Source: Alphaproteobacteria bacterium
Lineage (GTDB): Bacteria; Pseudomonadota; Alphaproteobacteria; CAAHEQ01; UBA3637
Direction: 5' to 3'
Assembly (NCBI GenBank): GCA_015062385.1
Contig: SUUT01000017.1
Location: 1-32,205 of the forward strand
DNA length: 32,205 bases
Positions within the stretch are counted from its first letter, which is position 1. Each line of letters begins with the position of its first letter. The notes beneath the pieces were generated by a model. The model searched no databases and was not told where the DNA came from. It worked only from the letters and a program-made list of their open reading frames with translations. The position numbers and the translations under genes are program-made. This document shows positions 156 through 24,912 of this stretch, piece after piece.

Positions 156-1520
156 CTAGTTTGTTAAGCAATAATCTACGACTTTATGGAGTTTAAAATT
201 CATACTACCGCAGTTATTATCACATTCATTATCCCAAAATTGAATAGTCACATCTTCAACACCATTAAATGTAAAATATTTAATCGGTTGATTTCTTAAT
301 GCATTTGTTAATCCATTAATATCTTGTGTTGATTTGTATTCCCATTCAGTTCCAAAAGTTTTATCCATATGAATAATATATCCTAAATCTGCTACCCCCT
401 CTAAAATATGTGTTCCAAATCCAACCCAAGGATCTGCCTCTGAACAATTATAATAATGGTATCCATCAACCCATTCAAAATAATATGTTCCTTTTAGTTT
501 ACCTAAGTTATTTGTTGTAATACGACACTCCCAAACAGAACTATTAATTCCGGTTGAAGCAATATCCATTTCAACCACATCTTCTGTTTTACAGACACAT
601 TCTCCATTTTGATTGGGTTCTAATTCGTATTTTGCCGTATCACAATAACACGCACATGTTTCCCCATCCTGAATCTGTCCCGTTGGACAGGATGTTGCAC
701 AAGGCGTACACATTTTTGTTGTCGCATCCCAATGTATTTTATCTGTCGGACAAGATTCACACATATTGTTTGTTCCGCAAATCGGTGTCGGATTTGTACA
801 ATCTTCATTTGTTAAACATTCTACACATTTTTCATCTTTCCAAATCGGAGAGAAATCCGGACAGCGACACATAACTTCATCTTCAAACCATTCTTTGGGA
901 GGATAACATCGTTCACAATTATCCCCGAACTCATATTCATGCCGACAAATACATCCGTATGTACCGTCTTCTTTTTGTCGCCATACCATTTTATCGGGGC
1001 AGGTTTCCGGTTCAGCATATCCTCTCCCCGCTCCATCAGCCCCGTTTCCGTTATCAAAGTGGCTGCCCAAATTGACAACGGGTATTGTATCAAACACAAA
1101 TACCATATTCGTTTTCATGTTTTTATTGCCACAACTTCGAGTTAATATAGATATACCCATATCATTTAAAATACTTTCTTTTTGAAGGACTTTTTCACAT
1201 ACGTTATAAACAACTTTAAACGCTGTTACCTGATAATTACTATCAATCAGTTTAACCATAGATTTTTTATCATCCGGCGTATATTCAGACAAGGAAGATT
1301 TTAAAAATCGATTGACTTCCAATGCATGCGAAGCCCGAGAATCCGTTTGTGCCAATGTTTTGGCTTTTCCGAGAATATCCTGTATTTTTCCTGCTTGATA
1401 AGCGGTTAACGCATATTGATAGGTTGCCCCCCCCCCAACGGATAACACCCCGATAATTGCCAATACCCCTAGCATTTCCACCATACTTCGTCCGGTTTCA
1501 TTCAGTTTGATTTTAAACAT
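156..1520 (-). CDS. Pilin-like Cys-rich surface protein A
   Basis: A 454-residue protein with a type IV prepilin-like N-terminus: a short basic leader ending at Gly10, then RSMVE with the conserved Glu at +5 (Glu15), then a hydrophobic helix to about residue 36. This is the pattern cut by prepilin peptidase. After a region of about 130 residues resembling a pilin head come many Cys-rich segments (CxC, CxxC spacing, about residues 170-310) and a C-terminal domain with fewer Cys. Disulphide-stabilised export to the cell surface is inferred. The start at 1520 has an upstream GAGGGA ribosome site and gives the expected leader. Codons 29-31 plus the next base form a run of ten G (1427-1436), a possible slippage site. 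No function is known to me; it belongs with the genes at 22621-24912 and 31856-32205. Confidence 0.8.
   Translation of the reverse strand: MFKIKLNETGRSMVEMLGVLAIIGVLSVGGGATYQYALTAYQAGKIQDILGKAKTLAQTDSRASHALEVNRFLKSSLSEYTPDDKKSMVKLIDSNYQVTAFKVVYNVCEKVLQKESILNDMGISILTRSCGNKNMKTNMVFVFDTIPVVNLGSHFDNGNGADGAGRGYAEPETCPDKMVWRQKEDGTYGCICRHEYEFGDNCERCYPPKEWFEDEVMCRCPDFSPIWKDEKCVECLTNEDCTNPTPICGTNNMCESCPTDKIHWDATTKMCTPCATSCPTGQIQDGETCACYCDTAKYELEPNQNGECVCKTEDVVEMDIASTGINSSVWECRITTNNLGKLKGTYYFEWVDGYHYYNCSEADPWVGFGTHILEGVADLGYIIHMDKTFGTEWEYKSTQDINGLTNALRNQPIKYFTFNGVEDVTIQFWDNECDNNCGSMNFKLHKVVDYCLTN
1427..1436 (-). repeat. G10 homopolymer inside the pilin-like gene
   Basis: Ten consecutive C on the plus strand (G on the coding strand) encode Gly29-Gly30-Gly31 and the first base of Ala32, directly within the hydrophobic N-terminal helix. 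In so AT-rich a sequence a ten-base G run is unexpected, although GGG is also used for nearby Gly18 and Gly24. Gain or loss of one G would shift the frame and abolish the product, as in known contingency genes. The paralogue at 24912 lacks the run at the same place. Confidence 0.85.
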
Positions 1521-1558: not shown

Positions 1559-1709
1559 AAAAAAAGGGACCTTTTTTTCCCTATACGATTCGGCAAAATC
1601 GAATTTTTGAAAAAGTGAAAGATTATTATTTTAATTGAATATGTTAATTAAAATCAAAAAAAACACTAAAAAGTGAAAAAAAATGTTGCATTTATACGTC
1701 CCTTTTTTT
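1559..1709 (-). promoter_or_regulatory. 151-bp upstream cassette with terminal inverted repeats, copy 1
   Basis: Bounded by AAAAAAAGGGAC (1559-1570) and its exact reverse complement GTCCCTTTTTTT (1698-1709), with 127 bp between. The copy at 24958-25108 has the same two end repeats and exactly the same total length. In the sense of the pilin-like gene the far end reads AAAAAAAGGGACGTATAA followed by ATGCAAC. The near end, AAAAAAAGGTCCCTTTTTTT, abuts TATAAT (complement of 1554-1559), a likely -10 box about 34 bp from the start codon. The near end would therefore occupy the -35/spacer region and could be an operator. An invertible segment or a small transposon-derived repeat are alternatives. 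Confidence 0.65.
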
Positions 1710-2263: not shown

Positions 2264-3667
2264 ATGGCTGATAACAAACCCGTTAATTATGATGCATATT
2301 TAAGTCGCAAAGAAGCAGAAATCCAACAAGAATCAAGAGAAGCGGCAAAAACTGCAAGGGACAATGCTGAACGCACACTTGAAACTACCCGAAACAGATA
2401 TTATGATGCGTCAGACAATGCATTGAAAGATGAATACGAAAAAGCACAAGAAGCATATAATAGTGCAAATCAAGCTTATAATGATATATTAGAGGAACAA
2501 CAAGAGGCTGCACAAGAAAGGATTGAAGAACAACAAAGACAAGATCGTCGAACCAGAGGGGATTTAGATTGGACAGACAGACGCCCGGAAATTTTCGGCG
2601 GAGCAACCGAAGAACAGCGAAATACGGCTGATCGTGTTGCAGCAGATAAAGAAATTGAAAATGCAAGACGGGAAAAAGAAGAAGCTGAAAAAAGAGTCAG
2701 AGATATTCAGGCACGATTAAGAAATAGAGGATTAAGCAATGCCGAACGAGAAGCTCTTGAAAGTGATTTAAAGGATGCGCGTGACGATGTTGCAGATGCG
2801 ACAAAAGATTTACAAGATGCTGAAAAAGACAAAGCTGATATTTTAAAATCGCAAGATGAAGATGCCAAAGAAGATGCCGCTGAAAAAGCCCGAATGGATG
2901 CTGGCAACTTAACATGGTGGGAACGCAATGCCCCATTTGAATGGATGGGTCGTGCATCTGACGAACAAATTAAAGCCTATGATGCAAAAGAAGCGGCGGC
3001 AGATGCTAAAGAAGATAACGCCGAAAAAGCCCGAATGGATGCTGGCAACTTAACATGGTGGGAACGCAATGCCCCATTTGAATGGATGGGTCGTGCATCT
3101 GACGAACAAATTAAAGCCTATGATGCAAAAGAACGAGAAGCCAATATCCAAGAAGCGAAAAAGAAAGAAGCAGAAATTAAAACAAAATTAAAAGATCCTA
3201 AATTAAGTAATGATGATCGGGAAGATCTTGAAGAAGATTTGAAAGATGTTCGAGATGACTTACAGGGATTACAATCTCAAACAAACAATAATGCTAATAA
3301 CAACAACACTGGAGCTTTAAGCGATGGTGTTATTTCAAGTTATGAACGTTATGCGCCAACAGAGGCCGGTGGAGCCACCCAAGAGGAAATCGAAGCTTAC
3401 GATAATGCAGAAAGCATTAATATTAAAGGCGTTTCAACAAATGAACTCGTCAGCTCTCCGGTTCTACGTCAAAATTTAACACAAATTAAAAAAGCACAAG
3501 AATTGGCAGCCAAAACTGATGGACAAGTTGATATCCAAGATTACATTGATGCTGGTCTTCGTCCGGAATTAGCAAAACAAGTAGCTCGTGAAATTTATCA
3601 AGCCAATCAAACTAATGATGGTACAGAAAGACCACAAGCTCCAAAAGTAGCAGACAACAGCAGATAA
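2264..3667 (+). CDS. Charged coiled-coil protein with duplicated W-x-R-x-A-P motif
   Basis: A 467-residue, highly charged protein rich in Ala, Glu, Lys, Asp and Gln with no signal peptide or membrane segment. Long heptad-like helices (about residues 10-90, 120-200, 290-340) alternate with a short motif seen four times: near residues 97-125 and 365-390 in diverged form, and twice identically (GNLTWWERNAPFEWMG followed by an SDEQIKAYD segment) at about 212-290. A generic form is E-R-x-A-P-x-E-x-x-G, then A-x-x-E-x-I-x-A-Y-D. The two identical copies come from a very recent DNA duplication. AAAGGAG precedes the ATG and a strong terminator follows at 3692-3740, so it is a single-gene unit. I do not recognise the family. 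A structural or scaffold protein, or a secreted effector, is possible but unsupported. Confidence 0.75.
   Translation: MADNKPVNYDAYLSRKEAEIQQESREAAKTARDNAERTLETTRNRYYDASDNALKDEYEKAQEAYNSANQAYNDILEEQQEAAQERIEEQQRQDRRTRGDLDWTDRRPEIFGGATEEQRNTADRVAADKEIENARREKEEAEKRVRDIQARLRNRGLSNAEREALESDLKDARDDVADATKDLQDAEKDKADILKSQDEDAKEDAAEKARMDAGNLTWWERNAPFEWMGRASDEQIKAYDAKEAAADAKEDNAEKARMDAGNLTWWERNAPFEWMGRASDEQIKAYDAKEREANIQEAKKKEAEIKTKLKDPKLSNDDREDLEEDLKDVRDDLQGLQSQTNNNANNNNTGALSDGVISSYERYAPTEAGGATQEEIEAYDNAESINIKGVSTNELVSSPVLRQNLTQIKKAQELAAKTDGQVDIQDYIDAGLRPELAKQVAREIYQANQTNDGTERPQAPKVADNSR
2882..3133 (+). repeat. Tandem duplication, 141-bp unit with 111 identical bases
   Basis: Bases 2882-2992 and 3023-3133 are identical over 111 bp, at an offset of 141 bp (47 codons). 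The 30-bp joint between them is similar to the sequence flanking the first copy. In-frame units of this identity can expand or contract by recombination, changing the protein in steps of 47 residues. Confidence 0.95.
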
Positions 3668-22620: not shown

Positions 22621-24912
22621 TTAACTACCACTCGGAGGATAACAATATCCATCTTTATAAGAACGATTGACACACACATCACAATCTTTTTTGTCTGTCA
22701 CTTTTATCGGCGTTGTAATATTGCATTCATAACATTCCTTATCAGCTCCTAATAATTGTTTATCATCAGAACATTTTTCACGATTACACATGGTTCCGTT
22801 TAAAACTCTATTCGGACAAATTTTAGTACAACGCCCTTTATTATTACCATTCACATTAACAGATGTTGCTGTCTCACAACTATAACATGTTCCATATTCC
22901 TCATTTAAAGGTTTCCCTGCTGTTCCATTTTCTTCCGAATCACATTTCAGATAGCAATAATTACCGGGATTTGCATTATCAACAAACCGATTCGGACAAG
23001 CATCACAATTACTTTCTACCCCATGAACAGGCTGTGCAGATTTAGTATAGCAATCATGACAACTGCCATTTTTATCCATAAAATATCCCTTTTCACATGC
23101 TTTTAATACACAATAACCATTTTTTTCTTCCCGATTAGGACATAACTTGGAACAAGAATCCGTTAATGCAGAAATCGCAACTCTTTCGGGATAATTACAT
23201 GCCTTACAGGTTCCGGATCCATCAATCAACAGAGGGGTATCAGGATCAGAACAACCCAACTGACACATTGATCCACTTAAAACCCGATTTGGACAAATTT
23301 TGGAACACCGCTCCTTATTTGTACCATTCACATTAACAGACGTTGCTGTCTCACAACTATAACACGTTCCATATTCTTCGTTTAATTTTAAACCTTTTGT
23401 TCCATTTTCTTCCGAATCACATTTCAAATAACAATAGTTACCGGGATTTGCATTATCAACAAAACGATTCGGACAAGCATCACAATTACTTTCTACCCCT
23501 TGAACAGGTTGTGCAGATTTAGTATAACAATCATGACAACTACCATTTTTATCCATAAAATATCCTTTTTCGCATTCTTTCAATACACAATATCCGTTTT
23601 TTTCTTCCCGATTAGAACAGAGTTTTGAACAAGAATCTGTTAATGCAGAAATTGCAACTCTTCCGGGATAATTACATGCCTTACAGGTTCCGGATCCATC
23701 AATCAACAGAGGTGTATCAGGATCAGAACAACCCAACTGACACATTGATCCACTTAAAACTCGATTTGGGCAAATTTTGGAACACCGCTCTTTATTCGTA
23801 CCATTTACATTAATGGATGTTGTTGTATCACAACTATAACATGTTCCATATTCCTCATTTAAAGGTTTCCCTGCTGTTCCATTTTCTGCCGAATCACATT
23901 TCAGATAGCAATAATTACCGGGGTTTGCATTGTCAACAAACCGATTCGGACAGGCATCACAATAATTCTCTACCCCATGAACAGAATATGCCGTCGTTGA
24001 TTTACAAGAACGACAATTGCCGTCTTTATCCATAAAATAGTCCTTATCACATTTGCTCACACAGACATTTCCCTGTACAAAACGATTTGGGCAGACATTA
24101 CAGTTTTTTTTCATATTTTTTACATCTACTTTTGCCTTGTCATCACAAGAATAACACTTGCCATCTGTACCTCTTAAAGGTTTATCTGCCGGACAACAAT
24201 TTCCATCCCAATCACAGCATTTTCCATCTTCTGTGACAGATGCACAACAATATGAACCCACAATGTTAGATTTTCGGCAACATATCATCCATTCAGGCTC
24301 ACTGTAATCTTTAACACATTTTTCATTATCTAAACAATTTGTTTCACATAATCCGATTTGTACATTACATGTGCCACAATTACAATCGTTTGAATGACGA
24401 CAACGCATAATTTCGTGACGGTCTTTTTCTTCTATTTCTGCCTCAGGCAATAAATCTTTGTGAAACTCATAAGCTAATTCCACTTTTTCAGCTTGCGTAC
24501 AAATATCAACACTGGATTCGTATTGTGTCGTCCCGATAAAAATAGAATACGGTGCCTGCCATTGACTTTGTAAGAGCAATTTACAAATTTCACTCGGTAC
24601 TTCTGATATAAATATTTCAAAATAATCAACATATTGTGGATGCATTCGGGCCGTTATCGGATAGCCCATCCGCATAACCGGCCCCATTTCCATTGGAATA
24701 TCTCCTGCATAATTATTTTCAATATATTGTTCCATGTGGTGAGATATTGCCGATGCCCGAATATTGAGTTCATTTATCGTTTCGTTAGCTATATACTTGT
24801 TCATTGCGAATTTATATCCCAAAATACCACTCACACTTAATACGCCGATAACGGCTAAAACCCCTAGAATTTCTACCATACTTCGTCCGTGTTCATTAAA
24901 TCTGATTTGCAT
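22621..24912 (-). CDS. Pilin-like Cys-rich repeat protein B
   Basis: A 763-residue protein with a prepilin-like leader ending at Gly9, RSMVE with Glu14 at +5, and a hydrophobic helix. A pilin-like head of about 150 residues follows, then some 600 residues of Cys-rich units. Each unit has C-x-x-C pairs and a C-P-N-R-(F/V) word, alternating with YFMDKNGSCHDCYTKSAQ-like and LLIDGSGTCKACNYP-like blocks, and resembles small disulphide-linked growth-factor-like modules. Two units of 159 residues are nearly identical and a third is partial. The C-terminal NRSYKDGYCYPP tail recurs in the protein at the right window edge. The ATG follows TGAGGAG. Inferred to be an exported, surface-displayed fibre or adhesin-like protein; no specific family is known to me. 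Confidence 0.8.
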   Translation of the reverse strand: MQIRFNEHGRSMVEILGVLAVIGVLSVSGILGYKFAMNKYIANETINELNIRASAISHHMEQYIENNYAGDIPMEMGPVMRMGYPITARMHPQYVDYFEIFISEVPSEICKLLLQSQWQAPYSIFIGTTQYESSVDICTQAEKVELAYEFHKDLLPEAEIEEKDRHEIMRCRHSNDCNCGTCNVQIGLCETNCLDNEKCVKDYSEPEWMICCRKSNIVGSYCCASVTEDGKCCDWDGNCCPADKPLRGTDGKCYSCDDKAKVDVKNMKKNCNVCPNRFVQGNVCVSKCDKDYFMDKDGNCRSCKSTTAYSVHGVENYCDACPNRFVDNANPGNYCYLKCDSAENGTAGKPLNEEYGTCYSCDTTTSINVNGTNKERCSKICPNRVLSGSMCQLGCSDPDTPLLIDGSGTCKACNYPGRVAISALTDSCSKLCSNREEKNGYCVLKECEKGYFMDKNGSCHDCYTKSAQPVQGVESNCDACPNRFVDNANPGNYCYLKCDSEENGTKGLKLNEEYGTCYSCETATSVNVNGTNKERCSKICPNRVLSGSMCQLGCSDPDTPLLIDGSGTCKACNYPERVAISALTDSCSKLCPNREEKNGYCVLKACEKGYFMDKNGSCHDCYTKSAQPVHGVESNCDACPNRFVDNANPGNYCYLKCDSEENGTAGKPLNEEYGTCYSCETATSVNVNGNNKGRCTKICPNRVLNGTMCNREKCSDDKQLLGADKECYECNITTPIKVTDKKDCDVCVNRSYKDGYCYPPSGS
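22832..23985 (-). repeat. 477-bp tandem repeats inside the pilin-like gene
   Basis: Units begin near 22832, 23309 and 23786, spaced exactly 477 bp (159 codons); for example TTCCGGATCC recurs at 23211 and 23688. The first two are near-identical at DNA level; the third is a partial copy ending near 23985. The high identity implies recent expansion, and the array could gain or lose units by recombination. Confidence 0.9.

Follow-up and report, generated by a model that had tools for sequence, protein, structure and literature searches.

A G10 tract in a pilin-like surface protein gene as a candidate contingency locus, and poly-G/C tracts in related Alphaproteobacteria

In meningococci, most tracts that reach 8 nt are variable (PMC5084427). 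In Neisseria such repeats are found in promoter spacers, as at fetA and porA (PMC5320596), as well as in the 5' part of coding sequences (PMC5084427). A G-tract also switches the pili of Bifidobacterium breve, where a tract of ten G slips much less than one of eleven (PMC9187656), an observation that counts against switching at the locus described here. A 2025 review listed among the open questions why only pathogens seem to have genomes rich in phase-variable loci (PMC11868660).

We analyzed a stretch of 32,205 nucleotides from an alphaproteobacterial assembly, here called the window, in which a G10 tract lies inside the gene for a pilin-like surface protein. As in the translational poly-G/C loci of Campylobacter and Neisseria (PMC5084427) the tract sits towards the 5' end of a gene for a surface protein and follows the same on/off logic of the frameshift, but proteins and lineage are unrelated and the window is known from one assembly. 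It also resembles the sortase-dependent pilus switch of B. breve (PMC9187656), in which a G-tract of 10–11 lies within the coding sequence of a pilus gene of a gut bacterium and slippage sets the frame. In contrast to the window, the pili of B. breve are Gram-positive LPXTG pili, its tract separates the signal and body ORFs, and variation was measured. The arrangement at fetA and porA (PMC5320596), poly-C/G between -35 and -10, recurs in the relatives G025, G027, G030, G031 and G035 of the same bacterial family, with the difference that one genome can carry the pattern at dozens of loci; the window gene itself does not have a promoter tract. The mechanism considered here, the slipped-strand contingency locus, is of a known kind, while the lineage and the protein family are new for it. 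Open-access papers, whose silence is no proof as subscription papers and preprints lie outside them, yielded no description of loci of this type for the lineage or for the protein family.

The tract and the pilin-like protein

On the + strand window positions 1427–1436 read CCCCCCCCCC between TTG and AAC, the ten C corresponding to G10 on the coding strand. The codons across the tract are GTT GGG GGG GGG GCA (V28 G29 G30 G31 A32). The tract is thus in frame within an intact ORF, as the preliminary description had stated for Gly29–Gly31 and the first base of Ala32, and since the ORF is intact the assembled allele is the full-length one. The same description had placed the tract in a hydrophobic helix following a prepilin-like site and had predicted that a one-base change frameshifts everything behind it. 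Both points are borne out by the features in Table 1 and by computed slips, in which loss of one base leads to a product of 37 aa and gain of one base to a product of 78 aa.

Table 1. Positions of the features in the window
Feature	Position	Strand	Remarks
Pilin-like surface protein gene	156..1520	-	454 aa, ATG, without internal stop; full-length 82% identical paralogue in the same genome
G10 tract	1427..1436	-	fills codons 29-31 and opens codon 32
Prepilin-type cleavage motif G10/R11SMVE15 (Gly -1, Glu +5)	1476..1493	-	(nearly) invariant in 16 aligned paralogues
Hydrophobic helix at the N-terminus of the mature protein, conserved	1419..1490	-	contains the G10 tract
Ribosome-binding sequence GAGGGACAA	1521..1530	-	ahead of ATG
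Near-palindrome AAAAAAAGGTCCCTTTTTTT	1559..1578		adjoining TATAAT, without poly-G; conserved upstream of paralogues
Paralogue in the window	22621..24912	-	763 aa, without G run

Gly10 and Glu15 are invariant in the alignment of 16 paralogues, and the protein is presumably cleaved between Gly10 and Arg11. With type IV pilins and pseudopilins it shares Gly at -1, Glu at +5, a long hydrophobic N-terminal helix and the presence of a prepilin peptidase in the genome (PF01478, 55.3 bits, C3:29636-29962). Unlike type IV pilins, the family has large cysteine-rich bodies of 400 to more than 1000 aa, Arg at +1 and more than 100 matching places per genome. The Pfam model N_methyl scored 12 bits on the window protein, below the cut-off of 21.2, and NCBIfam gave no match for it. 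The predicted structure consists of a long helix (residues 9–59) followed by a helix and strands, at a mean pLDDT of only 58; a Foldseek search with this low-confidence model returned no pilin among its matches and no usable fold match. We describe the protein as pilin-like and not as a proven pilin.

No G tract is present in the region upstream of the window gene, where one could have served as promoter spacer. A near-palindrome lies beside TATAAT in the forms AAAAAAGGTACCTTTTTT / AAAGGTCCCTTTT, both here (1559-1578) and upstream of the pilin-like genes L018-L022, L025 and L047. Near-palindrome and TATAAT are possibly a shared operator/promoter of the pilin-like genes. Further along the window (2264-3667) we noticed an ORF of 467 aa with a long internal repeat near 2866-3135, in which AEKARMDAGNLTWWERNAPFEWMGRASDEQIKAYDAKE occurs twice; no Pfam family was found for this ORF.

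A tract of at least 8 nt near the 5' end of the coding sequence, as present here in codons 29-32, supports a contingency locus. At such a locus the assembled G10 would have been caught in the full-length frame, replication slippage by one base would shift the frame and turn the gene off with a product of one of the two computed lengths, and a reverse slip would restore the full-length frame. The length of G10 would then vary in the population and this variation would be selected. A slip by three bases would alter the helix used for packing. Against switching speaks the position of the tract in the conserved helix of the mature protein, whereas tracts in relatives lie in the leader or promoter.

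Homopolymer runs can also cause transcriptional slippage or ribosomal frameshifting, in which case two products would arise from one fixed DNA length. We regard this as very improbable for the window gene, as the -1 and +1 frames run into a stop some 6 to 47 codons after the run and no useful alternative C-terminus is visible.

Paralogues and the origin of the run

The window protein has 119 matching places in its own genome, and 90 genes of the genome fit a degenerate N-terminal motif pattern; these 90 are the paralogue set. Only the window gene carries the G run; the other 89 have no comparable run, including the one at 24912 for which this had been noted before. The earlier remark that the run is dispensable for the family is right. 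Residue 31 is V, I, L or M (codon NTN) in 89 of the 90 paralogues, and Gly is found in the window gene only. The comparison of the tract with related genomes, which the preliminary description had proposed as a check, went against conservation: the run is kept neither in 89 of the 90 paralogues nor in the relatives' copies of the gene that were examined. In the orthologue of the nearest species (MAG RGIG7750, apparently G008) the contig ends before the tract and the 5' end is absent.

At the site of the tract the two nearest copies read GTTGGGGGTGTTGCAACC and the window gene GTTGGGGGGGGGGCAACC, with equal length and three T-to-G differences. Since the nearest paralogues have GGGGGTGTTG at equal length, the run arose via T-to-G changes and not by expansion. 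In its leader and upstream of the run the gene resembles C11:33554 (96% over 53 nt) and C36:25046, at the run and just 3' of it the copy at C9:129611. As different copies are matched on either part, the window gene may be a mosaic of paralogues. The 119 matching places and the shared 5' ends could feed recombination between copies.

A rival explanation is an incidental tract, in which GGGGGTGTTG became G10 in one copy through point changes, either alone or after conversion between paralogues. Such a tract would slip at the rate usual for a G10, but switching would be unselected and without a role. Equal length to the two nearest paralogues (GTTGGGGGTGTTGCAACC), uniqueness among 90 copies and the unusual Gly31 in the helix agree with this, as does the location of several other tracts of the genome in intergenic regions or in housekeeping-type genes such as UvrD. 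However, three T-to-G changes within one 10-base stretch are disfavoured under neutral drift, runs of at least 10 are in excess in the genome and relatives use such tracts strongly (see below). We therefore consider an incidental tract possible, but at less than even chance.

The same three differences bear on the quality of the assembly. A false G10 could have resulted from the collapse of reads that stem from the near-identical paralogues, or of reads in which T was miscalled as G behind a G run. The 5' end of the gene is a high-copy repeat inside which several contigs of the assembly end, the paralogue sequence differs by T-to-G at three sites only, and trouble in reading G-tracts by Illumina sequencing has been reported (PMC9187656). 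On the other hand, the bases flanking the tract are gene-specific (e.g. GTG TTA vs GTA TTA), the frame is intact across 454 codons, and eight other G/C runs of at least 9 exist elsewhere in the genome, one G10 being identical in a second genome. An error of assembly or base calling is accordingly unlikely. The contigs of the genome (G000) in question are C4, C7, C18, C25, C28, C30 and C45, which end within the conserved 5' end of pilin-like genes.

Long G/C runs in the genome and in related species

The genome of the window comprises 1.81 Mb with about 35% G+C. Using a third-order extrapolation from a 292 kb sample of it as background, a rough estimate given the rarity of long runs under any model, about 5 G/C runs of at least 9 are expected per genome and 9 were seen; for runs of at least 10 the expectation is about 1.3 and 8 were seen. 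Lengths were 9 (once), 10 (five times), 11 (twice) and 20 (once). A/T runs of at least 10 were absent from the 292 kb sample, the longest being 9. The excess is confined to runs of at least 10, as expected if runs past a threshold turn unstable. In-frame coding tracts were found in a glycosyltransferase (G10), a DUF6782-type protein (G11) and UvrD (C9). A coding enrichment of the tracts was dropped as an idea because about half of the nine are intergenic. The G10 of the glycosyltransferase is identical in G008, but this is void as a test of conservation since the flanks in G008 are nearly identical as well.

The longest run, C20, is located on the minus strand at G000:C42:57219-57238 (L016), 17 codons after an ATG with GTGGAGG ahead. 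The actual ORF has 27 aa, and 507 open codons follow downstream in another frame; the function of the protein is unassigned. Distant paralogues in the same genome (C6:22294) and in G008 have an intact leader and similar upstream sequence, which argues that the start of the C20 gene is probably right and the assembled allele off. The C20 locus is apparently a contingency locus in the off state. Use of promoter-spacer tracts by this genome was rejected, as the pattern gave no match in it.

Genomes of the genus to which the window belongs have only 2-10 tracts each, which, like the missing promoter-spacer tracts, speaks against switching of the window gene. A side observation from five species of this genus is a hairpin GAAAGAGGAAC...GTTCTCTCTTTC with a loop of A7-9 followed by G9-10 (L015:2975-3020; L252, L240, L241, L232), for which Rfam holds no family; in most of the five species a ATAGGGAGAC-like sequence lies 3' of it. 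A separate observation is a G11 run 12 codons into an ORF of 369 aa (L257, G001:C21:26555). We take its start, NKNKNDEFYTQ, to recall adenine DNA methylases, and the ORF is possibly a phase-variable methylase.

Across the genomes of the bacterial family poly-G counts differ sharply, some genomes having no match and others over 300 overlapping ones, with 61 separate G runs of at least 9 in G030 and 74 in G025, members of two other genera. When reading the placement from 40 stretches around poly-G runs, we found two recurrent positions. In the first, poly-G immediately follows a TTGACA-like box and precedes a TATAAT-like one, as in TTGACTCT-G11-TATGCTATAAT and TTGACA-G14-TATGGTATTAT. A TTGAC/TAnnnT promoter-spacer pattern gave 75 matches in 42 genomes of the family, some sites being counted repeatedly where several -10 boxes fit, versus 1 match for the reversed control. 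Outside the family, at a stricter run length, 12 matches were found in 8 of 286 genomes of the class (control: 2). The distance to the best -10 box was 14 to 25, most often 19; as the box was searched for, this spread is only indicative. Among 47 unique promoter-type tracts 40 had enough downstream sequence to be scored, and 24 of these have a pilin-like gene within 700 nt downstream on the same strand, compared to 0 of 14 on the diverging side. Targets of the remaining promoter tracts include ankyrin-type proteins, recognised by eye. In the second position, poly-C follows the start codon at a distance of 4-31 bases, in genes for pilin-like proteins or for small secreted ones; where ribosome-binding sites are present, about 8 of these leaders are in frame and about 8 out of frame.

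We further compared tract lengths using 115 tracts with 80-base flanks. Lengths differ in 20 of 29 pairs with similar flanks, the pairs being gene copies or species and not one locus resampled. In G027, paralogous promoters with flanks 85-99% similar carry 8, 9, 10, 18 or 19 G. Because different copies or species are compared, this indicates that the tracts are unstable on an evolutionary scale and does not demonstrate switching within a population. In G025 and G030 a large share of tracts is located near contig ends, which fits mixed tract lengths and equally plain assembly trouble. Taken together, the placement in relation to the reversed control, the mixture of frames and the differences in length are, for the family, most naturally read as signs of slipped-strand contingency loci.

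Proposed switching of the window gene and of the family

The proposal of the preliminary description that the window gene is possibly phase-variable stands in part. It is backed by the slippable length, the truncating slips, the excess of runs of at least 10, the poly-G/C loci at the level of the family and the C20 locus of the same genome. Lack of the run in 89 of 90 paralogues, its position in the mature helix and its origin without a change in length weigh against it. Switching at this locus is plausible, though unproven, and for G10 as a slippage-prone translational contingency locus that functionally switches the window gene we see an evenly balanced case.

In the wider setting, poly-G/C tracts of relatives would govern many pilin-like genes via promoter spacing and early-codon frameshifts. 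We are somewhat more confident about the family as a whole: it probably has a phasome in which poly-G promoter spacers, in some members dozens per 1.3-Mb genome, and poly-C leaders individually switch an expanded pilin-like family as well as ankyrin-type and small secreted proteins; the window gene would be atypical among its members in that the tract falls within the mature helix. The set of tracts in relatives apparently represents a large, undescribed on/off switching repertoire. Its bearers are uncultured and probably gut-dwelling Alphaproteobacteria. The MAG of the close relative RGIG7750, also assigned to Alphaproteobacteria, comes from the rectum of water buffalo, and we infer a gut habitat for the whole bacterial family.

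Taken by itself, the window gene matters less, as it concerns the possible switching of a single surface protein. In the family, if the above is true, two levels of switching would act on one huge surface protein family, which metagenome reads allow to be tested directly and without culture. If reads confirm variation, this uncultured lineage of gut Alphaproteobacteria, which is probably commensal, would clearly contradict a restriction of genomes with many phase-variable loci to pathogens.
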